From Arthrobacter hankyongi (GTDB lineage Bacteria > Actinomycetota > Actinomycetes > Actinomycetales > Micrococcaceae), in assembly GCF_022012395.1 (NCBI RefSeq), contig NZ_JAKLTQ010000019.1, positions 1-64,000 on the forward strand: a stretch of DNA of 64,000 nt. Reading direction: 5' to 3'. Position numbers and translations under genes: made by a program. This document shows, in pieces, positions 4,034-21,374 of the stretch. The notes beneath the pieces are model-generated. The model was given only the letters and a program-made list of their open reading frames with translations, searched no databases and had not been told where the DNA came from. How positions within the stretch are numbered: the stretch's first letter is position 1; every line of letters begins with the position of its first letter.

Positions 4034-4966
4034 ATGGGCGCAGAGACGGGTCCGGCGGCCGGCCCGGTCCTGATCGACGTGCCGACGTTGCAGGAGCGGC
4101 TGGCATCGGGGGCGCGGACGCTCCTGCTGGACGTGCGCTGGGCCCTGGGGGACCCGCACGGCCGGGAGCACTACCTGGCCGGCCACCTGCCCGGTGCCGT
4201 CTATGTGGACCTCGAAAGCCAGTTGGCGGCTCCGGCCTCCGCCGCGTCCGGGCGCCACCCGCTGCCCGATCCGGCAGCATTCGCGCAGGCGGCGCGCGGC
4301 TGGGGCATTAACGACGGCGATCTGGTGGTCGCCTACGACGCGACCGGCGGCCTGGCCGCGGCACGGCTGTGGTGGCTGCTGCGCGACGGCGGCATCGCCG
4401 GCTGCCGTCTGCTCGACGGCGGACTGGGAGCCTGGCAGGCCGCCGGCCTGGCCCTCGAAGCCGGGGATGTGCGGCCGGCCCCCGGCACGGTCCGGCTGGC
4501 ACCCGGACAGTGGCCGGTACTGGAACTGGCCGAGGTCGCGGACTTTGCCCGGAACGGGCTGCTGCTCGACGCCCGCGCCGCGGAGCGCTACCGCGGCGAG
4601 TCCGAGCCGGTGGACCCCAGGACGGGACACATCCCCGGCGCCGTCAGCGCGCCCACCACGGCGAATCTGCAGGCCGACGGCAGGTTCCTGCCCGCCGACA
4701 GGCTCGCGGAGCGGTTCGGGCGCCTTGGCGCCGGGCCGGGCAAGTCCCGGAAGGTGGCGGTGTACTGCGGTTCCGGGATCACGGCGGCGCATGAAATTGC
4801 GGCCTTGGCGCACGCCGGCATCGAGGCGGCCCTGTACCCGGGCTCGTGGTCCCAATGGTCCCAGCATCCGGACCTGCCGGCAGCCACCGGCGACGAGCCG
4901 GGCAATGCACAATCCGGAACTATCCAGTGGCACGCCCGCGGTGGAGCGGGTAGCGTCGGATCATGA
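4034..4966 (+). CDS. sseA: Sulfurtransferase, 3-mercaptopyruvate type (tandem rhodanese)
   Basis: 310-aa enzyme with two rhodanese domains (about 12-145 and 165-295). Only the C-terminal domain carries the active cysteine, Cys245 in CGSGIT. That loop matches 3-mercaptopyruvate sulfurtransferases (CGSGVT in SseA) rather than thiosulfate-specific rhodaneses (CRKGVT), so it probably moves sulfur from 3-mercaptopyruvate to cyanide or a thiol acceptor. It starts directly after the stop of the MBL-fold gene and overlaps the dehydrogenase gene by 4 bp (ATGA). Confidence 0.88.
   Translation: MGAETGPAAGPVLIDVPTLQERLASGARTLLLDVRWALGDPHGREHYLAGHLPGAVYVDLESQLAAPASAASGRHPLPDPAAFAQAARGWGINDGDLVVAYDATGGLAAARLWWLLRDGGIAGCRLLDGGLGAWQAAGLALEAGDVRPAPGTVRLAPGQWPVLELAEVADFARNGLLLDARAAERYRGESEPVDPRTGHIPGAVSAPTTANLQADGRFLPADRLAERFGRLGAGPGKSRKVAVYCGSGITAAHEIAALAHAGIEAALYPGSWSQWSQHPDLPAATGDEPGNAQSGTIQWHARGGAGSVGS
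4951..4956 (+). promoter_or_regulatory. Internal -10 element before the dehydrogenase
   Basis: TAGCGT lies 6 nt before ATG 4963, inside the 3' end of the sulfurtransferase gene. It could give a leaderless transcript of the dehydrogenase-HIT pair in addition to read-through from upstream. Confidence 0.4.
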
Positions 4967-6159
4967 CTCTCGGCCGCCCCGTCCCGCCGCCCTTGGGCGC
5001 GAAAGCAACTCTGCCGGACGCCCGGACCGGACGGCCGGCCCGGACCGGGGCCACGGTCCGGGCCTATGGTGCCGCCTCTGCCTCCTCTGGTCTGGCACCG
5101 CTGGATATCAAGCGGCGCGAGCCGGAGCCGCACGACGTCGAAATCAGCATTGCCTTCTGCGGGCTGTGCCATTCGGACGTGCACGCCGTTCGGGGCGAAT
5201 GGCGTGACCAGCACTATCCGCTGGTGCCCGGACACGAGATCGTCGGCCGCGTCACCCGCACCGGCGAGGACGTGAGCATGTTCTCGGTGGGGGACCTGGT
5301 GGGCGTCGGCTGCCTGGTCGATTCCTGCCGGACCTGCGACAGCTGCAGCGAAGGGTTGGAGCAGTACTGCGAAAACGGTGCGGTCGGCACCTACGGTGCG
5401 CTGGACCAGCGCCACGGCGGGGAGGTCACGCAGGGCGGGTACGCCACCGCCATCGTGGTGGATGAGAAGTATGTGCTGCGGATGCCCGAAAGCCTGGACC
5501 CGGCCGAGGCGGCGCCGCTGCTCTGCGCCGGGATCACTGTTTTCTCCCCCATGCAGTACTTCGGCGTGGAGGAATCGGACGCGGTCGGCGTCGTGGGGCT
5601 GGGCGGACTGGGCCATTTGGCCGTCAAGATCGCCAAAGCCCTCGGCGCCGAGGTGACCGTCTTCACGTCCTCCCCGGGCAAGGTCGAGGCCGCCCGGGGG
5701 CTGGGCGCCGACCGCGTGGTGCTCTCCACGGACGACGAGGCCATGGCGGCGGCCCGGCGCAGTATCGACCTCATCATTGACACCGTCTCCGCCCGACACG
5801 AACTGGGGCCCTATCTGCGGACCATCCGGCGGGACGGGGCCCTGATCCAGGTGAGCCTGCCGCCGGGCCAGATGCCGCCGGTCCCGGTCGGCGTGCTGGC
5901 CGGCCGCCGGATCGCCTACGGCGGCTCGATGATCGGCGGCATTGCCGAGACACAGGAGCTGCTGGACTTCTGTGCCGCCCATGACATTGCCGCCGACGTG
6001 GAACTGGTGGCGGCGGATAGGCTGAACGAAGCCTGGGACCGGATGGTGGCCGGGGACGTGAAGTACCGCTTCGTGCTGGACGTCGAGTCGCTGAATCCGG
6101 CCCAAGACCCGGACGGCGGCCGGGCCGGCACATTGAACTTGCAGGAAAGGAACGCATGA
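4963..6159 (+). CDS. Zinc-dependent alcohol dehydrogenase (CAD/YahK type)
   Basis: 398-aa medium-chain dehydrogenase/reductase. Catalytic zinc site: Cys69 in CGLCHSD and the GHE at 90-92. Structural zinc site: Cys122, Cys125, Cys128 and Cys136. The Rossmann motif is GLGGLGHLAV. The pattern fits the cinnamyl-alcohol/YahK group of NADP(H)-dependent aldehyde reductases; the substrate is not predictable. About 30 extra residues precede the catalytic domain and about 20 follow it, so an internal start is possible. It overlaps the genes on both sides by 4 bp. Confidence 0.87.
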   Translation: MTLGRPVPPPLGAKATLPDARTGRPARTGATVRAYGAASASSGLAPLDIKRREPEPHDVEISIAFCGLCHSDVHAVRGEWRDQHYPLVPGHEIVGRVTRTGEDVSMFSVGDLVGVGCLVDSCRTCDSCSEGLEQYCENGAVGTYGALDQRHGGEVTQGGYATAIVVDEKYVLRMPESLDPAEAAPLLCAGITVFSPMQYFGVEESDAVGVVGLGGLGHLAVKIAKALGAEVTVFTSSPGKVEAARGLGADRVVLSTDDEAMAAARRSIDLIIDTVSARHELGPYLRTIRRDGALIQVSLPPGQMPPVPVGVLAGRRIAYGGSMIGGIAETQELLDFCAAHDIAADVELVAADRLNEAWDRMVAGDVKYRFVLDVESLNPAQDPDGGRAGTLNLQERNA

Positions 6160-6584
6160 GCACGCTGTTCACCAAGATCATCGAGGGCGAAATCCCCGGC
6201 CGCTTCGTCTGGAAGGACCCGGAGGTCGTCGCCTTCCTGAGCATTGGCCCGCTTGCGGACGGCCACACGCTGGTGGTGCCCCGGCAGGAGGTGGACCGCT
6301 GGACGGATGCGCCCGCGGACCTGCTGGCGAAGCTGACGGCGGTGGCCCAGACCATCGGCAAGGCGCAGGTGGAGGCCTTCGGTGCGGCACGCGCCGGGAT
6401 GATCATCGCCGGGTTCGAGATCAACCATCTGCACCTGCACGTCTGGCCCTCCAACTCCGAGGCCGAGTATGACTTCAAGCGGGCCCAGCACAACCCGGAT
6501 CCGGCCGTGATGGATGCCAGCGCAGAAAAGATCCGGGCCGCCCTGCGCGATGCCGGCCAGGGGGAATTCGTCCCCGAGGCCTGA
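6156..6584 (+). CDS. HIT-family nucleotide hydrolase
   Basis: 142-aa histidine-triad protein; the triad HLHLHV (His91, His93, His95) is intact. HIT proteins hydrolyse phosphoramidate or anhydride bonds of nucleotides such as AMP-lysine or dinucleoside polyphosphates. The FTKIIEGEIPGRFVWKD beginning is typical of the bacterial HinT/Hit group. It overlaps the dehydrogenase gene by 4 bp, ends the four-gene operon, and is followed by a strong hairpin. Confidence 0.9.
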   Translation: MSTLFTKIIEGEIPGRFVWKDPEVVAFLSIGPLADGHTLVVPRQEVDRWTDAPADLLAKLTAVAQTIGKAQVEAFGAARAGMIIAGFEINHLHLHVWPSNSEAEYDFKRAQHNPDPAVMDASAEKIRAALRDAGQGEFVPEA

Positions 6585-6591
6585 GCCGGCA

Positions 6592-6629
6592 GCGGACAGG
6601 TGCCGGTCCGCGGGCCGGCACCTGTCCGC
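6592..6629. terminator. Bidirectional hairpin terminator
   Basis: Perfect 15-bp stem (6592-6606 with 6615-6629) and 8-nt loop between the convergent HIT and hrpA genes. No U-tract on either side, as is common for actinobacterial terminators. Confidence 0.75.
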
Positions 6630-6631
6630 GC

Positions 6632-9600
6632 TCAGGCCGCCAAGGCTTCGTGCAGCGCGGTACGGACGCGTTTTTCGGAGACCGAATAGGCGGTGCCCAG
6701 TTCCTGCGCGAAGAAGCTCACGCGCAGTTCCTCGAGCATCCACCGCACCCGCTGCAGGCCCGCCCCCGGACGGGAGCCGGGCAGCAGGGCCGCCACGGCG
6801 TCGTCGTACTCATCCTCGAGCCGCTGCACCACGGCCATCTGCGCACCGTCCCGGGCCACATTGGTTGGCAGCTTCTCCAGCCGGCGCTCGACCGCGGCCA
6901 GGTAGCGGGGCAGCTGGCTCAGCTGCGCATATCCGGTGCGCGCGACGAAGCCCGGGTAGACCAGCTGCTCGAGCTGGGCCTTGATGTCGTTGAGCGCGCT
7001 GATCAGGGCCAGGCTGGTACTGGACTTGAGCGCCTTCTGGATCCGGCGTGTGCTGGAGAGGATCTTTTCCACCGTTGCGGTGACGGCGAAGACCGTGTCG
7101 ATCAGTTCGGCCCGCACCGTCTCGTACAGTTCCTCGAACTCGGCGGCGGTGAAGGGCAGCTGCGCCGGGACCAGCTTGTCGATGGCGGCCAGCGTGCAAT
7201 CGTCGATCAGCGACCCGACCGAACCATGCGGATTCTGGCTGAAGGTGAGTTTCTCGGTGTTGTTCAGGTGTTCGAGCACATAGCGCTGCGGCGAAGGGAT
7301 CCGCAGCGCGAGCAGCCGGATGACGCCCGAGCGCATGGCCGGCTCCTGTTCGGCCCGGGTCTGGTAGATCCGCAGCCCGACGGCCCCACCCTCATCGACG
7401 AACGCGGGGTAGCCGGTGACGGTGTGTCCGGCTACCAGGCGCGAGACCTGCCGCGGCAGCACCGACGGCGCGAAGCCCTTCAGCCCCGACCGTTCGGCGA
7501 GCACGTCGCCGTTGGCCAGCACCATGGACTCGGCACGGTCCCCGGTGGCGGCGGACAACCGTGTCTTGGTTCCCACGCCCGCGGCCCGTTCGGTGGCGCG
7601 TACGCCGCGGGGCCCGGAGCCCGGCACGGGTTTGACCGTCTGCGGGGTGGCACCCAAAGACTCGGCGATCGCCCGGCGGGTGGCCGGGGCCAGCTCCTCC
7701 TGCAGCTGGGCCAGGTCCTTGCCGTCGCCCAGGATCCTGCCCTTGCCGTCCACCACCTGGAAGGTCATCCTCAGGTGCGGTGGGACCGCCGCCCAGCTCC
7801 AGGAGCCGGGCGGGATGATGTGGCCTTTCAGCCGGCGCAGCGCCAGCTCCAAGGAAGGTTCCAGCTCGTCCGTGGCCGGGTCGAACTCCGCGGCGAGCGC
7901 CTGGGCCGCGGCCCGGGCCACGTCCGGGGCCGGCACGAAGTTCTTGCGGACCTGCTTGGGCAGGGACTTGATCAGGGCGGTGATCAGTTCCGCCCGCAGG
8001 CCGGGAATCTGCCAGCGGAACGGGGCCGGTTCCAGCTGGTTCAGGAACAGCACCGGGATCCGCACGGTGACCCCGTCCGAGGCGTTCGGCATCGCTCCGG
8101 GGGCGGTGGGCGAGAATTCGTAGCTCAGCGGCAACTCGAAGGTTCCCTGGTGCCACGTCTTCGGGAACGCGGACTCGTCCAGGTCCTCGGCTTCCTCGGT
8201 AAGCAGGGCATCCGGATCGAAGTCCAGCAGCGAGGGATTCTCCTGCCGGGCGGCCTTCCACCACTTGTCGAAGTGCCGCTCGGAGACCACGTCGGCGCCG
8301 ATCCGCTGGTCGTAGAACTCAAACAGCGACTCGTCGTCCACGCGCAGGCCGCGGCGGCGGGTCCTCGCCTCCAGTTCCTCGACCTCGGCCAGCAGTTGCC
8401 GGTTCCGCTGGAAGAACTTGTGGTGCGTTTTCCAGTCGCCTTCCACCAGCGCGTGGCGGATGAACAACTCGCGGCTCAGCTCGCGGTCGATCCGTCCGTA
8501 CTGGATCCGGCGCTGCGGCACGATCGGTACCCCGTACAGCGTGACCTTTTCGTAGGCCATGACCGAACCCATCCGGCGGGACCAATGCGGTTCGGAGTAG
8601 CTGCGCTTGAGAAGCTGCGGGGCGATTTCTTCGGCCCAAAGCGGATCGAACCGGGCCGCCACGCGGGCCCAAAGCCGGGACGTTTCCACCAGTTCGGCGG
8701 CCATCACCCAGTCCGGCGACTTCTTGAACAGGGCAGAGCCGGGGAAGATGGCGAAGCGGGTGCCGCGGGCACCGGCATACTCGCGCTTGCGTTCGTCGTA
8801 CACGCCGATGTGGCTCAGCAGCCCGGCCAGCAGGGACTTGTGGATGTCGTCATGCTTGCCGGCCGGATCCACCTCGCTGCCGGTGCTCAGCGTGATGCCC
8901 AGCGGCTTGGCCAGCTGGCGCAGCTGGGCGAACAGGTCCTGCCATTCACGGACGCGCAGGTAATTGATGAACTCGTCGCGGCAGAGCCGGCGGAAGGCAC
9001 TGGAAGAGAGCTCCTTCTGCTTCTCCTGCAGGTAGCTCCAGAGGTTCAGCATGCCGGCGAAGTCCGAGTTCTCGTCCACGAAGCGCTTGTGCTTCTCGGT
9101 GGCCTGCTGATGCCGGGCGGCGTCGTCCCGCTGCGGACGTTCGCGCGGATCCTGGATGGTCAGCGCCGCGGCCAGGACCATCACTTCGCGGACGCAGCCG
9201 CGCCGGCCGGCCTCGACGATCATCCGGCCCAGCCGCGGATCCACCGGCAGCTGGGCCAGCTGCCGGCCGACGGCGGTCAGGCCGGAGCGCTCGTGGGCCT
9301 CCCCGGGTCCCGCCAGGGCGCCGAGTTCGCGCAGCAGGTTGACGCCGTCGGTGATCGCCCTGGTCTCCGGCGGCTCGACGAACGGGAAGGATTCGATGTC
9401 CTTGGGGCTGCGGGCCACCCCCATCGCGGTCATCTGCAGGATGACGGCGGCCAGGTTCGTGCGCAGGATCTCCGGGTCGGTGAATTCCCGGCGGGCGGCG
9501 AAATCTTCCTCGGAGTACAGCCGGATGGCGATGCCGTCGCTGACCCGGCCGCAGCGGCCGGAGCGCTGGTTCGCCGAGGCCTGGGAGATCCGTTCGATCG

Positions 9601-15372: not shown

Positions 15373-16353
15373 ATGTTGAAAAAGGTGGCGGTGGTAGTGC
15401 TCCCGGGGACCTCTCCGTTCGAATTCGGCGTGGTCTGCGAGGTCTTCGGCATCGACCGCTCGGACCGCGGGACCGGGGTTCCAGCCTTCGACTTCACCGT
15501 ATGTACGCCGCAGCCGGGAGTCATCGGGACCAAGACGGGATTTACCATCAACGTTGCCCGCGGCCTCGACGCGGCGGACGAAGCCGACCTGGTGGTGGTC
15601 GCCCCCTACACGGATTCGGACCCGCTGCCGCCCAGCGTCGTGCACGCCCTGCGGCGGGCCCATGCCCGCGGCGCCTGGGTGATGTCCGTCTGTTCCGGCG
15701 CGTTCGTGCTGGCCGAGGCCGGACTGCTGGACGGCCGGCGCGCCACCACGCACTGGCAGTACTCCCGCCGGCTGGCCGAGGAATACCCGCTCGTGGAGGT
15801 GGACGAGAACGTCCTTTACGTCCAGGACGGCAAAATCATCACCAGCGCCGGCACCGCCGCGGGCATTGATGCCTGCCTGCATCTGGTGCGGACCGAGCTC
15901 GGCGCATCGGTGGCGACGGCGATTGCCCGGGACATGGTGGTGCCACCGCACCGCGACGGCGGGCAGGCGCAGTACATCGACCGGCCGATGTCCCTGGCCG
16001 GCTGCGACACGCTCAAGGACCTGTTGGTCTGGCTGAGCGAAAACCTCGGCCAGGAGGTCAGCGTCGCGGAACTGGCCAACCGGGTGCACATGTCCGGACG
16101 CACCTTTGCCCGGCGCTTCCGGGCCGAGACCGGGGCGACGCCGGCCGCGTGGCTGAACTCGCAGCGGGTGCTCCGGGCCCAGGAGTTGCTGGAGGAATCA
16201 GATCTGGGGATCGAGGAGATTGCGCGGGCCTGCGGCTTCGGCCAGGCCGTGCTGCTGCGGCACCATTTCACCAAGGCGCTGGGGGTCAGCCCGGCAGCGT
16301 ACCGGCGCACCTTCCGGGGGGCAGCGCACGCGGACTCGCTGCAGCCGGCCTGA
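15373..16353 (+). CDS. GlxA-type transcriptional regulator (DJ-1/PfpI plus AraC HTH)
   Basis: 326 aa. The N-terminal DJ-1/PfpI-like domain (about 3-190) keeps the nucleophile-elbow cysteine (Cys107 in SVCSGAF) and the TTHW segment. Two AraC-type helix-turn-helices follow in the C-terminal 100 residues (SVAELANRVHMSGRTFARRF, then the IEEIARACGF motif). Such proteins activate or repress amine, amidase or stress genes; the effector is unknown. Divergent from the 55-aa membrane gene, so that gene or glxA itself is the nearest candidate target. The start is probably leaderless. Confidence 0.88.
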   Translation: MLKKVAVVVLPGTSPFEFGVVCEVFGIDRSDRGTGVPAFDFTVCTPQPGVIGTKTGFTINVARGLDAADEADLVVVAPYTDSDPLPPSVVHALRRAHARGAWVMSVCSGAFVLAEAGLLDGRRATTHWQYSRRLAEEYPLVEVDENVLYVQDGKIITSAGTAAGIDACLHLVRTELGASVATAIARDMVVPPHRDGGQAQYIDRPMSLAGCDTLKDLLVWLSENLGQEVSVAELANRVHMSGRTFARRFRAETGATPAAWLNSQRVLRAQELLEESDLGIEEIARACGFGQAVLLRHHFTKALGVSPAAYRRTFRGAAHADSLQPA

Positions 16354-16436: not shown

Positions 16437-16445
16437 GTTCCTGTG

Positions 16446-16518
16446 TGCCCTCGATAGGATTCGAACCTACGGCCTTCTGCTCCGGAGGCAGACGCTCTAT
16501 CCCCTGAGCTACGAGGGC
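16446..16518 (-). tRNA. tRNA-Arg (anticodon CCG)
   Basis: 73-nt cloverleaf on the minus strand. Acceptor stem GCCCTCG/CGAGGGC is perfect, the anticodon stem is TCTGC/GCAGA around loop CTCCGGA, and the T arm has TTCGAAT. Anticodon CCG reads CGG arginine codons, which are common in this high-GC genome. Discriminator base is A. The CCA end is not encoded (CAC follows). A hairpin terminator lies 10 bp beyond its 3' end. Confidence 0.95.
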
Positions 16519-16650: not shown

Positions 16651-18168
16651 TCAATAACCCAGGAAGGCGTCGGTCCGGATGCTCCTGGCTCCGGCCCGGC
16701 GCAGTTCCCGCCGGGTGGCGGCGACGAACCCGGGCGACCCGGAGACATAGACGGCACGCCGGGCCAGGTCCGGTACTGCTGCACGCAGTTGTTCGGCAGT
16801 GAGCGGTCCCCGGTGGTGCCGCCAGCCGTGCGGCAGCCCGGGTGCGTCGGGCGAGAACACCGTGACCGGCACCTCCAGCCCGGCCAATTCGTCCCGGTAG
16901 GCCACGTCGTCCGCTCCGCGGACTGCGTAGACCAGCCGGATGTCCCGGTCCGGACCGCCGCCCTGGCTGCGCAGCTGGCTGATGAAGGGCGTCAGGCCGA
17001 TGCCTCCGGCCACCAGCAGGACCGGCCGGGACGGGTCCGCCGGCAGGACGAAATCCCCGGCGACATGCGTGGCGTCCAGACGTTGTCCCGGCTGCAGCTG
17101 CAGCAGTCCGCGTTTGAAGCTACTGGACGGTTCGGCCAGGCGCAGACCGAAAGTCAGCTCGGGGTCCCCGGGGGCCGACGTCATGCTGAAGACCCGCCGC
17201 GGACCGCGCGAGTCAGGGTTCGGGTGCGGCAGGTTCAGTTCCATGTACTGGCCCGGGCGGAAGGATACCTGCCGGACCGGTACGAAGCTGAACTCCTCGC
17301 TGGTATCCGTCAGCCTCCGCCTGCCGGTGAAGGTCAGCAGAATCCGTCCGCGCTGGCCGGCGAGGAAGGCCAGCGTATTGCCGGCGAGCAAAGCCAGCTC
17401 GGGCGCGTTGAAGAGCGGCCCGGCCTGGAACGGCACGAACGCCAGCAGTGCGACGACGGCGGCGCACGCCAGCTGCTGCCAGCGCCGCGGCGGCAGCGTC
17501 AGCGGTTCGCTGAGCATAAAGCCGGCCAGGAAAACCACCGGATAGGACGCCACGGAAGTCCACACTGCGTCGGCCGGGCCCGTGCCGGCCGCGGTCAGCC
17601 GGATGCTGATGACCGCGACGCTGACCAGGACGGCCACCGCGCCGAGGGCCAGCTTGCGGCTGCGGTAGAGCACCAGGAAGGCGCCGAGCGCCACCACCGG
17701 CAGCAGCGCAGGGGTCGCTGCCCACCAGGTGGCCGCGTTGGCCGCCATTAAGGGCATGAACCCGCTGAGCTGGGCCACCAGGACGGCAGAGACCGCTGCC
17801 GGGTTGAATACGTGCCGGCCGCGTACCGCCAACAGGAACTTGCTGGCACTGGCTGCCACCCCGGCGAAGGCCAGGGACACGAGCATGCCGGGCTGGGCGT
17901 CAGGGAAGAACAGGAAGAACAGCAGCAGCGCGGTGATCACCGACGAATCCAGATGGGCGCGGACCTTGGCCAGCCGGGCGAACAGCCAGCCGCTGCCCAG
18001 CGTGGCCGCGAGCAGCACGGTAAGGCTGGCAGCCATGTCCCAGAGGGTGAAGAAGAAGGCGCCGAAGGCCGCCAGCACCAGCGACTCGGCCAGCAACGCC
18101 AGCAGTGCCAGGATCACCAACCGGTACATGGTGGTGCGGCCCAGGAAGGAATCAAGCCTGGCCTTCAT
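16651..18168 (-). CDS. NqrB/RnfD-like membrane domain fused to FAD/NAD(P)H reductase
   Basis: 505 aa. Residues 1 to about 275 form roughly nine transmembrane helices like NqrB/RnfD, including the FNPAAVSAVL segment at the position of the flavinylated helix. The C-terminal 230 residues are a cytoplasmic ferredoxin-NADP reductase fold with FAD motifs RPGQYMEL and RRVFSMTS, the NAD(P)-binding GGIGLTP, and the terminal SGSPGF. It should carry electrons from NAD(P)H through FAD and membrane flavin to the cell exterior. Its ATG overlaps the apbE stop by 4 bp, so translation is coupled to the flavin transferase. Confidence 0.85.
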   Translation of the reverse strand: MKARLDSFLGRTTMYRLVILALLALLAESLVLAAFGAFFFTLWDMAASLTVLLAATLGSGWLFARLAKVRAHLDSSVITALLLFFLFFPDAQPGMLVSLAFAGVAASASKFLLAVRGRHVFNPAAVSAVLVAQLSGFMPLMAANAATWWAATPALLPVVALGAFLVLYRSRKLALGAVAVLVSVAVISIRLTAAGTGPADAVWTSVASYPVVFLAGFMLSEPLTLPPRRWQQLACAAVVALLAFVPFQAGPLFNAPELALLAGNTLAFLAGQRGRILLTFTGRRRLTDTSEEFSFVPVRQVSFRPGQYMELNLPHPNPDSRGPRRVFSMTSAPGDPELTFGLRLAEPSSSFKRGLLQLQPGQRLDATHVAGDFVLPADPSRPVLLVAGGIGLTPFISQLRSQGGGPDRDIRLVYAVRGADDVAYRDELAGLEVPVTVFSPDAPGLPHGWRHHRGPLTAEQLRAAVPDLARRAVYVSGSPGFVAATRRELRRAGARSIRTDAFLGY

Positions 18169-19052
18169 ACGAACAGTTCCCCTTTCAATGTTCCCCAGTA
18201 CTCGGCACGCCCGTCGGAAAACATCCGCACGCAGGAAAAACCCGCCAGGCAGGATTCTGCCGCCAGCCGGGCGGGGGAGGCGAAGAACAGCCCGGTGGCC
18301 ACGCCGTCGGCGACCAGGGTCGACTCGGCCACCGCCCAGGTGGCCGCCACGCTGTCCACCGGCACCCCGGTCCGGGCGTCGAGTACATGGTGCAGTCCCT
18401 CACCCCAGGCCCGGCGGTTGGCGGCGGAGGCACAGATGGCCTGGCCCTCCACCACCAGGCTGCCGATGGCGCGGGTCGCGTCGTAGGGATGTTCCAGTGC
18501 CACCTCCACCGGACCGCCTGCATCCACGAGCATGTCTCCGCCGGCATCCACGAGGCAGCGCGCGAATCCCCGGGCCCGCAGTACCCCGGCGACCAGGTCC
18601 ACCAGCTGGCCCTTGCCGGCCGCGCCGACGTCGAGCAGCAGCGGCGCCGCGGTGGCCAGCTCCGGCCCGTTCCAGGCCAAGACGCCGTCCACATTGTCCC
18701 AGGCGGGCGCCGGCAGGGGATCGCCGGCGGGCGTCAGCGAATAACCGGCGTCGTAGCCCAGGCGTTCCAGCGAGCTGCCCACCAGTGGGGAGACCTGGCC
18801 GCCGGTGGCCCGGTGCAGGGCGGCATAGACCTCGGCCAGCCCGGCCGCGTGCGCCGGCAGCCGGTGGGATCCGGGCTGCCCGGCCAGCCGGGCCACCAGC
18901 GAATCCTCCCGGAACCGGGACCAGAGCAGGCTGTAGTCCTCGATGCAGGCTGCGACGGCGGCGCGGGCCGGCGCATCCAGCGGCTGGCCGGTGGCGATCG
19001 ACCACCGGGTCCCGATGGCGTCGAAGGCGAATTCGTGGGCTAGAGCGGCCAT
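18165..19052 (-). CDS. apbE: FAD:protein FMN transferase
   Basis: 295-aa ApbE-family enzyme that transfers FMN from FAD to a Thr/Ser of flavoproteins. Conserved features are IGTRWSI near the start, DVGAAGKGQLVD (the LGGIGKG-like substrate loop, here GAAGKG) and VDAGGDML with metal-site residues. No signal peptide or lipobox is visible, so it appears cytoplasmic or non-classically exported, unlike many ApbE lipoproteins. Neighbours supply two likely substrates, the FMN-binding lipoprotein upstream and the membrane domain downstream. ATG 19052 lies 5 bp after the upstream stop. Confidence 0.85.
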   Translation of the reverse strand: MAALAHEFAFDAIGTRWSIATGQPLDAPARAAVAACIEDYSLLWSRFREDSLVARLAGQPGSHRLPAHAAGLAEVYAALHRATGGQVSPLVGSSLERLGYDAGYSLTPAGDPLPAPAWDNVDGVLAWNGPELATAAPLLLDVGAAGKGQLVDLVAGVLRARGFARCLVDAGGDMLVDAGGPVEVALEHPYDATRAIGSLVVEGQAICASAANRRAWGEGLHHVLDARTGVPVDSVAATWAVAESTLVADGVATGLFFASPARLAAESCLAGFSCVRMFSDGRAEYWGTLKGELFV

Positions 19053-19057
19053 GGCCG

Positions 19058-19546
19058 CTACCGGGAAGCCTCGGCCTTGATCTTCTCGACGGCATCCTTG
19101 AAGCCGCCGCTGGTCAGCGAGGAACCGGCGACCTTGGACACATTGAGCTCGTCCAGCTTCTTCCCGACCACCTGGCCCGCGATGCCGCTGGCGAACTCGC
19201 CCTGGAAGCGGCGCGTGTTGGGGTTCGAAGGGCGGGTCTGCGCCTGCACATCGGTCACGGTGCCGGACTGAAGTGTCATGGTGATGCCGATGGTTTCGGT
19301 CCCGCCGGGGGACTGGTACTGCCCGTCCGCCGAGTAGGTTCCGTCGGCGTAGCCCGAGGCGCCGCCGGAGGCCTGGGGCTGCTGTCCCTGCGCGGCCGGG
19401 GCGGTAGTGGCCGGTTCGGCGGCGGAACCGGCGCCGGTTCCGCCGGACGAACAGCCGGCGGCGCCGAGCAGGGCCACCCCTGCTGCGGCGGCGATGACGT
19501 AGTTTCCTGTCCTGGTCCTGGCGGCTTCCGTCACGGGCCTGGGCAT
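19058..19546 (-). CDS. FMN-binding domain lipoprotein
   Basis: 162 aa. Signal peptide with lipobox GAAGC (lipidated Cys32), a Ser/Thr/Ala/Gln-rich linker to about residue 68, then an FMN_bind domain with ADGTYSADGQY and the C-terminal AGSSLTSGGF. Thr145 in that motif is the expected site of covalent FMN attachment by ApbE. The gene is first in the three-gene cluster and is preceded by AGGAG. It would sit outside the membrane and pass electrons to an extracellular acceptor not identified here. Confidence 0.85.
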   Translation of the reverse strand: MPRPVTEAARTRTGNYVIAAAAGVALLGAAGCSSGGTGAGSAAEPATTAPAAQGQQPQASGGASGYADGTYSADGQYQSPGGTETIGITMTLQSGTVTDVQAQTRPSNPNTRRFQGEFASGIAGQVVGKKLDELNVSKVAGSSLTSGGFKDAVEKIKAEASR

Positions 19547-19733: not shown

Positions 19734-21374
19734 GTGACTCCAGAAGAACTTTCCGCTGCCATTACCGTCTGCCTCCAGGAAGCCGTCGACGCCGGCGAAT
19801 TCGCCATCGAGATGCCTGGCGAGGTCCGGGTGGAGCGGCCGAAGAGCCGAGAGCACGGGGACTGGGCCACGAATGTGGCGATGCAGCTGGGCAAGAAGGC
19901 CGGCATGAACCCCCGCCGGTTTGCCGAAATCCTCGGCGCCCGGCTGGAACAGATCGACGGCGTGGCCAAGGTGGAGATCGCCGGTCCCGGCTTCCTGAAC
20001 ATCACCGTCGACGCCGCCGCCGCCGGCTCGCTGGCCCGCACCATCGTCGAGGCCGGACCGGCCTACGGCACTAACGACGCCCTGGCCGGACACGTGGTCA
20101 ACATGGAGTTCGTCTCGGCCAACCCCACCGGGCCGCTGCACATCGGCCACACCCGCTGGGCCGCGCTCGGGGACGCGATTGCCCGGGTGCTGCGCGCCAG
20201 CGGAGCGGAGGTCACCGCCGAGTACTACATCAACGACGCCGGCAACCAGATGAACAAGTTCGCCGAATCCGTGCTGGCCGCCATCCACGGCCGGCCGACG
20301 CCGGAAGGCGGCTACCCGGGCGCCTACATCGCGGACCTGGGCCGCGAGGTGCTCGCCGCGCACCCGGACATCAAGTCGCTCACCGACGCGGCGGCGCTGC
20401 CGGTGGTCCGCCACACCGCCTACGAGGCGCAGATGGAGGATATCCGCAAGACGCTGCACGAATTCGGCGTGCACTTCGATGTCTACTTCTCCGAACAGCA
20501 GCTGCACGGCAGCGGCGCCATCGGTGCCGCCGTCGAACGCCTGCGCGCGCAGGGCCACATCTTCGACGAGGACGGTGCGGTCTGGCTGCGCACCACCGAC
20601 TTCGGCGACGATAAGGACCGGGTGCTCATCCGGGCCAACGGCGAACCCACCTACTTCGCCGCCGATGCCGCCTACTACCTGTCCAAGAAGGACCGCGGGT
20701 TCGTGGAGAAGATCTACCTGCTGGGTGCGGACCACCACGGCTACGTCAACCGGCTGAAGGCCATCGCCGCCTGCGCCGGGGACGATCCGGAAAGGAACAT
20801 CCAGGTCCTGATCGGCCAGCTCATCTCGGTCAACGGTGCCCGGCTGTCCAAGCGCGCCGGCAACATTATCGAGCTGCGGGACCTGGTCGAATGGCTGGGC
20901 AAGGATGCCCTCCGCTACTCGCTGGCGCGTATTCCGGCGGATTCGCCGATGGCCATCGACCCGGAGGTGCTGAAGAAGAACAGCAACGACAATCCGGTCT
21001 TCTACGTCCAGTACGCCCACGCCCGCACCTGCGCGGTGGCACGCAACGCCGTCGCTGCCGGCGTGGACCGCAGTGCCTTCGACGCCTCCCTGCTGCAGCA
21101 CCCGACCGAGAACGAACTGCTGGCCAAACTGGGCGGGTACCCCTCGGTGGTGGCCACCGCGGCGAAGTTCCGCGAACCGCACCGGATTGCCCGCCATTTG
21201 GAAGAGATCGCCGGGGCCTACCACCGCTGGTACGACTCCTGCCGGGTCACACCCATGGGCGAGGAACCGGTGGAAGACGTGAACCGCACCCGCCTGTGGC
21301 TCAACGACGCCACCACCCAGGTCCTGGCCAACGGCCTGGAACTGCTCGGCGTCAGCGCCCCGGAACGGATGTAG
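19734..21374 (+). CDS. argS: Arginyl-tRNA synthetase
   Basis: 546-aa class I synthetase that charges tRNA-Arg. It has the HIGH motif (His136-His139 in GPLHIGHTRW), a KMSKS-equivalent RLSKRAGN, the N-terminal Arg-tRNA-synthetase additional domain and a C-terminal DALR anticodon-binding domain. It opens the conserved argS-lysA-hom-thrC-thrB-rho block also found in mycobacteria. The start is GTG, probably leaderless. lysA begins 4 bp after its stop. Confidence 0.95.
   Translation: MTPEELSAAITVCLQEAVDAGEFAIEMPGEVRVERPKSREHGDWATNVAMQLGKKAGMNPRRFAEILGARLEQIDGVAKVEIAGPGFLNITVDAAAAGSLARTIVEAGPAYGTNDALAGHVVNMEFVSANPTGPLHIGHTRWAALGDAIARVLRASGAEVTAEYYINDAGNQMNKFAESVLAAIHGRPTPEGGYPGAYIADLGREVLAAHPDIKSLTDAAALPVVRHTAYEAQMEDIRKTLHEFGVHFDVYFSEQQLHGSGAIGAAVERLRAQGHIFDEDGAVWLRTTDFGDDKDRVLIRANGEPTYFAADAAYYLSKKDRGFVEKIYLLGADHHGYVNRLKAIAACAGDDPERNIQVLIGQLISVNGARLSKRAGNIIELRDLVEWLGKDALRYSLARIPADSPMAIDPEVLKKNSNDNPVFYVQYAHARTCAVARNAVAAGVDRSAFDASLLQHPTENELLAKLGGYPSVVATAAKFREPHRIARHLEEIAGAYHRWYDSCRVTPMGEEPVEDVNRTRLWLNDATTQVLANGLELLGVSAPERM

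Follow-up and report, generated by a model that had tools for sequence, protein, structure and literature searches.

A putative flavin-only electron-export cassette of Arthrobacter hankyongi whose lipoprotein may receive its flavin inside the cell

Through in silico analysis of the first 64,000 nucleotides of contig NZ_JAKLTQ010000019.1 of Arthrobacter hankyongi (assembly GCF_022012395.1; this stretch is called the window), a three-gene flavin electron-transfer cluster has been confirmed, encoding an FMN_bind lipoprotein, the flavin transferase ApbE and a membrane-reductase fusion protein. Judged from sequence, this cassette is rather probably an NQR/RNF-like, flavin-only transmembrane electron exporter, whose lipoprotein precursor would receive flavin mononucleotide (FMN) from a cytosolic ApbE. 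The genes all lie on the minus strand in the order lipoprotein (19058..19546; 162 amino acids), ApbE (18165..19052; 295 amino acids) and fusion (16651..18168; 505 amino acids). They are intact and the gaps between them are 5 and -4 bp, an operon-like arrangement that supports their description as one operon in the initial annotation. A promoter scan of the cassette with the sigma-70 consensus, which is ill-suited to a GC-rich genome, found none.

The fusion has been found in 36 of 149 genomes of the family (E<=1e-20) and in 51 of 396 genomes of the order (E<=1e-50). A total of 85 loci have been analysed: the window, L040-L074, L075-L103 and L145-L164, the last set being 20 of the 32 order matches outside the family. 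Arthrobacter mobilis is counted twice in this sample (L046, L075), and the partial match L104 was dropped. In 81/85 loci the lipoprotein, ApbE and fusion genes follow one another in this order on a single strand. The nearest cassette is that of genome G038, with a fusion 80-81% identical.

The fusion protein consists of an RnfD-like part (residues 1 to about 272) and a part of the ferredoxin-NADP reductase (FNR)/NqrF type (about 273 to 505), in agreement with the first description, which joined an NqrB/RnfD-like membrane part to a ferredoxin-NADP reductase. The C-terminal half matches PF00175 with 36.9 bits (Pfam; cut-off 22). In the Pfam copy used, PF03116 (NqrB/RnfD family) alone gives no match on the window fusion; the membrane half is a relative of RnfD by alignment over two stretches, the fold-search results leaving other folds possible. 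Between these stretches lie RnfD residues 143-219, the flavin loop, which have no counterpart in the fusion, so that its flavinylation site is missing. The window fusion contains one cysteine, and the best-shared cysteine column is present in at most 12 of 54 aligned sequences; well-conserved histidine columns are limited to His119 (53/54) and His315 (46/54). Since cysteines are not conserved and there are just two such histidine columns, electron transfer through iron-sulfur (Fe-S) clusters or paired-histidine haems is unlikely, and the lack of a conserved cysteine indicates that electrons probably move through flavins only. NqrDE/RnfAE (PF02508) was found in none of 25 genomes searched, that of A. 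hankyongi included, and in 4 of 14 control genomes. The remaining path would be formed successively by NAD(P)H, flavin adenine dinucleotide (FAD) in the cytosolic FNR-type half, a non-covalent flavin of the RnfD-like membrane half, and FMN linked covalently to Ser143 of the lipoprotein on the cell surface, from which an acceptor encoded away from the three genes would be reduced. The earlier proposal of a complete route linking NAD(P)H with a flavin outside is thus supported by homology.

Of the points raised in the initial annotation, the place of flavinylation in the cell has been the most fruitful. The window ApbE is identified by a Pfam ApbE score of 111 bits and by phmmer matches to solved ApbEs; its residues Ser209, Arg214, His221 and Asp249 are invariant in 50 aligned sequences. 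The His-Asp (28) and Ser-Arg (5) spacings equal those of FmnB, whereas the Ser-His spacing is 12 against 16 (FmnB numbers from PMC12052999). The N-terminus of the enzyme, MAALAHEFAFDAIGT, contains no export segment. For the related loci, an export segment was defined as a stretch ahead of the ApbE domain with a 15-residue Kyte-Doolittle mean >=1.6, which is a hydrophobicity test and not SignalP. Such a segment was present in 0/84 cassette ApbEs (that of the window was judged from its N-terminus directly) against 26 of 30 further ApbEs from the phylum, these being the best-scoring ones of a phylum search. The earlier remark that this ApbE has no export signal of its own therefore stands.

The partner proteins are exported or anchored: 42/43 actinobacterial lipoproteins possess a lipobox by pattern, and the Patescibacteria-type partners begin with a hydrophobic N-terminal anchor wherever the start is complete. 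The cassette ApbE is the sole ApbE found in 20 of the 36 fusion-bearing Micrococcaceae genomes (3/6 and 17/29; the genome of A. hankyongi is not among them) and in 14 of 15 Patescibacteria-type genomes, ten of them with Patescibacteria-type names and five titled only "bacterium". Each of these 15 has one FMN_bind match and, bar one genome, one ApbE.

According to PMC9973259, proteins loaded with a cofactor in the cytosol are exported by twin-arginine translocation (Tat), whereas substrates of the Sec pathway need the cofactor outside, and Listeria exports FAD to serve them. The cassette appears to fit neither half of this scheme well: it has no outside enzyme and no known FAD route, and there is mostly no Tat signal. 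For these reasons flavinylation of the precursor in the cytosol is favoured, and the data suggest that the lipoprotein acquires its flavin before it leaves the cell. The dedicated ApbE would stay cytosolic, as its missing signal implies, and would modify the precursor close to its C-terminus, either ahead of export or in its course, so that the cell could do without an ApbE on the outside and without a FAD exporter of the EetB type. The EetB family was found in 0/41 cassette genomes and in 8/10 genomes with signal-bearing ApbEs.

The lipoprotein itself, with a lipobox at Cys32, is assigned to FMN_bind by profile and fold, its Pfam FMN_bind score of 16.6 lying below the cut-off. In a profile alignment with 8p2a, Ser143 (codon 19118..19120, minus strand) stands opposite the last residue of SGAT, the residue that accepts FMN (PMC12052999). 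The motifs aligned with it in Patescibacteria-type and Ktedonobacteraceae relatives (n=21) are SGAT in 15, SGAS in 5 and TGAT in 1; the actinobacterial ones (n=63) are AGSS in 42, SGSS in 16, ASSS and GGSS in 2 each, and SGAS in 1. By these alignments and motif counts the predicted flavinylation site of the window lipoprotein is Ser143, and Thr145, the candidate site named in the initial annotation, is rejected; position 145 corresponds to a second conserved Thr/Ser, which is Thr in 62/63 actinobacterial sequences and in 17/21 of the other relatives. Counted from the C-terminus, the candidate site is residue 18 to 23 in 84/84 sequences and, being close to that end, belongs to the last part of the chain to leave the cell. 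A tag of seven residues is enough for ApbE (PMC12052999), so the enzyme might accept a chain that is still unfolded.

The observations that weigh against this reading of the cassette concern the number of ApbEs, the export signals, the target motif and the acceptor. In 16/36 Micrococcaceae genomes there is another ApbE or, in G028, no cassette ApbE. The genome of A. hankyongi encodes two further ApbEs (contigs C4 and C20), both starting without an export segment. That TatC, EetB or a further ApbE is missing from assembled genomes is weak evidence, the completeness of the Patescibacteria-type genomes not being given. As to export signals, a twin arginine occurs in 7/43 and 9/20 actinobacterial N-termini (in 2 of the 9 ahead of the likely start), and the signals of L152, L158 and L160 are Tat-like (RRxF/L). 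TatC was found in 6/6 Micrococcaceae, 3/3 Microbacteriaceae-type genomes and the one Ktedonobacteraceae genome tested. These data speak for an alternative with cytosolic flavinylation of the lipoprotein, followed by folding and exit through Tat, signals without a twin arginine being degenerate Tat signals. This alternative is nevertheless unlikely: the window signal, ARTRTGNYVIAAAAG, shows no twin arginine ahead of its hydrophobic stretch, most other signals have none either, among the 20 single-ApbE Micrococcaceae genomes just 3 have the pair in their lipoprotein, and of the 15 Patescibacteria-type genomes with this cassette 14 gave no TatC match. As a family-wide export route Tat has been rejected because TatC was mostly not found in the Patescibacteria-type genomes and the twin arginine is infrequent; for some lineages it is possible. 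In the Patescibacteria-type relatives Tat is hardly possible, so Sec would carry the modified chain. It may be, although we put this forward only tentatively, that the cassettes represent a phylum-spanning class of surface proteins to which an ApbE that is not exported bonds FMN covalently in the cytosol, and which then pass through Sec with the FMN attached.

The target motif is a further point of doubt. Compared with the consensus D-x-x-[S/T]-G-A-[S/T], the window motif S-K-V-A-G-S-S agrees at the glycine and the final serine only. The alanine of the motif is replaced by serine in 62/63 actinobacterial members; the leading aspartate is present in 24/63 and is serine in the window. Published assays indicate, in addition, that ApbE modifies Ser less well than Thr (PMC12052999). 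Together with the FMN_bind score below the cut-off, this divergence would fit a lipoprotein that is not flavinylated at all or binds its flavin non-covalently, ApbE modifying another, cytosolic protein, for which the cytosolic ApbE of Klebsiella with its cytosolic target (PMC12052999) is a precedent. Such an explanation is improbable because ApbE is flanked by its two partner genes or next to them in almost every locus, including those of genomes in which ApbE and FMN_bind give one match each; moreover, relatives of the same layout keep SGAT, and the Ser/Thr and Gly positions are retained.

The last point is the acceptor. Neighbour genes were clustered in 65 loci and then in 20 loci, and no acceptor gene was conserved beside the cassette across the lineages of these 65 + 20 loci. 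The iron, quinone or humic acceptors suggested in the initial annotation thus have no support from the genomes. The Micrococcaceae loci share the argS-lysA-hom side, which contains housekeeping genes only and is a matter of synteny, not of function. Three candidates have been rejected: (i) a MacAB-like ABC exporter, found near the cassette in L051, L055, L057 and L067 (Micrococcaceae) and L093, L098, L099, L100 and L103 (Patescibacteria-type), an apparent association within the fetched stretch; (ii) a two-component pair, present in L145, L151, L161, L162 and L163, of other families; (iii) a P-type ATPase, present within the fetched stretch in 9/84 loci and of mixed type. The last of these bears on a further alternative, compatible with cytosolic flavinylation because it concerns the acceptor, that the cassette is a metal (iron or copper) reductase feeding a transporter. 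The P-type ATPases, and the occurrence of VIT1 in 6/127 clusters (Meheust, PMC8238504), are in its favour. We regard it as having little probability, since the metal motif CPC or CPH is seen in 2/9 of the pumps, none of them is conserved across lineages and the Micrococcaceae loci have only their argS-side genes in common. As a separate observation, in L151, L161, L163 and L164 a P-type ATPase without CPC/CPH is encoded directly upstream of the lipoprotein gene on the same strand.

The weakest alternative, an ApbE acting outside without a recognisable signal, or some other outside FMN supply, as in Listeria, agrees with the published rule of extracytosolic flavinylation for exported targets (PMC9973259, PMC12052999) and is nonetheless very doubtful, given that the cassette ApbEs uniformly lack an export segment and the EetB-type exporter was not found in the genomes searched. 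The Gram-positive extracellular electron transfer system of Listeria (FmnB, PplA, EetB) likewise combines an ApbE-type enzyme with a flavinylated lipoprotein serving an external acceptor. However, FmnB and its FAD are outside, the FAD being exported by an energy-coupling factor (ECF) transporter with EetB (PMC9973259), and in the cassette neither an ApbE signal nor EetB has been found. The ApbE of Klebsiella pneumoniae resembles that of the cassette in lacking a signal peptide, and its target is a soluble fumarate reductase that stays in the cytosol (PMC12052999), whereas the target in the cassette is an exported lipoprotein or anchored protein.

The architecture of the cassette has already been described and is not new. 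NQR/RNF-like systems, in which an NqrB/RnfD-like domain is fused to an NAD-binding reductase and accompanied by an external FMN_bind partner and ApbE, are known from Actinobacteria and the candidate phyla radiation; their membrane domain has no flavin site, and they have been proposed to carry electrons of NAD(P)H to an acceptor outside the cytosol, which the available text does not name (Meheust 2021, PMC8238504; Huang 2024, PMC11334425). The cassette agrees with them in the fusion, the external partner, ApbE and the membrane domain devoid of a flavin site. The reductase fusion noted in the initial annotation is real and defines this class. The published rule for such systems (PF03116 + PF00175) would miss the window fusion with the Pfam copy used here. 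With the NQR/RNF complexes (NqrB/NqrC/NqrF, RnfD/RnfG) the cassette shares RnfD-like membrane, NqrC/RnfG-type FMN_bind and NqrF-type reductase domains. In contrast to them, no NqrDE/RnfAE, Fe-S cysteines or second path to the cytosol have been found, which leaves no semicircular ion-pumping route. The available text of the two papers on NQR/RNF-like systems does not discuss a signal-less ApbE or the GSS motif, and full-text literature searches, with the sources available in part, found no case of an ApbE without a signal that modifies an exported protein. The maturation puzzle is conserved and, in the literature seen, undiscussed.

Deviations from the common gene order are few. In L089 and L099 the ApbE gene is on the opposite strand at a distance of about 4.5 kb, in L159 it is the last gene, and in L061 (7480-10494) the fusion stands alone, an apparent transporter gene on the other strand taking the place of the lost lipoprotein and ApbE genes. 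In L149, L163 and L164 the ApbE domain is about 600 bases from that of the fusion. L081 has one open frame of 1044 amino acids that would join ApbE to the membrane protein; such a fused protein has been rejected as a likely frameshift, the N-terminal piece of the membrane protein being in another frame; the apparent frameshift near the fusion start (4239-7371) reflects decay or an assembly error, as does the stop codon that interrupts ApbE in L082 (5229-6000). The two further ApbEs of A. hankyongi differ in their surroundings. The one on C20 (L039) has the top score of the genome, 159 bits, with no FMN_bind match nearby and no evident signal. The one on C4 belongs to a second flavinylation cluster (L038, 3614-6212), formed from an MsrQ-like membrane reductase, an FMN_bind protein with the canonical SGAT and a signal-less ApbE.

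In the window the cassette occupies a slot between tRNA-Arg(CCG) (16445..16518, minus strand) and argS (19734-21374, plus strand), which are 3215 bp apart. The same distance is 170-245 bp in 6/6 sampled genomes of the genus without the fusion, where a relative of the regulator gene of the window (15373-16353) adjoins the slot. The window ArgS is 66-67% identical to those of fusion-free congeners and up to 79% to those of other genera; in LysA and the regulator the affinity is with the genus (78-81% identity). In trees, LysA groups with the congeners (support 0.95) and ArgS falls in the other half, with a support of only 0.515. A joint replacement of argS and the cassette is plausible on these comparisons, though not proven.

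The cassette thus belongs to a class that is known and, by the sources available, experimentally uncharacterised, and it poses a sharp and testable question of maturation. If the lipoprotein is flavinylated, its G-S-S motif would broaden the known target code of ApbE. If the flavin is indeed attached in the cytosol and carried through Sec, the usual rule, by which Tat serves proteins loaded in the cytosol and Sec those loaded outside, would be broken and FAD export would not be needed, which would change the prediction of external flavoproteins and of where FAD must be supplied.

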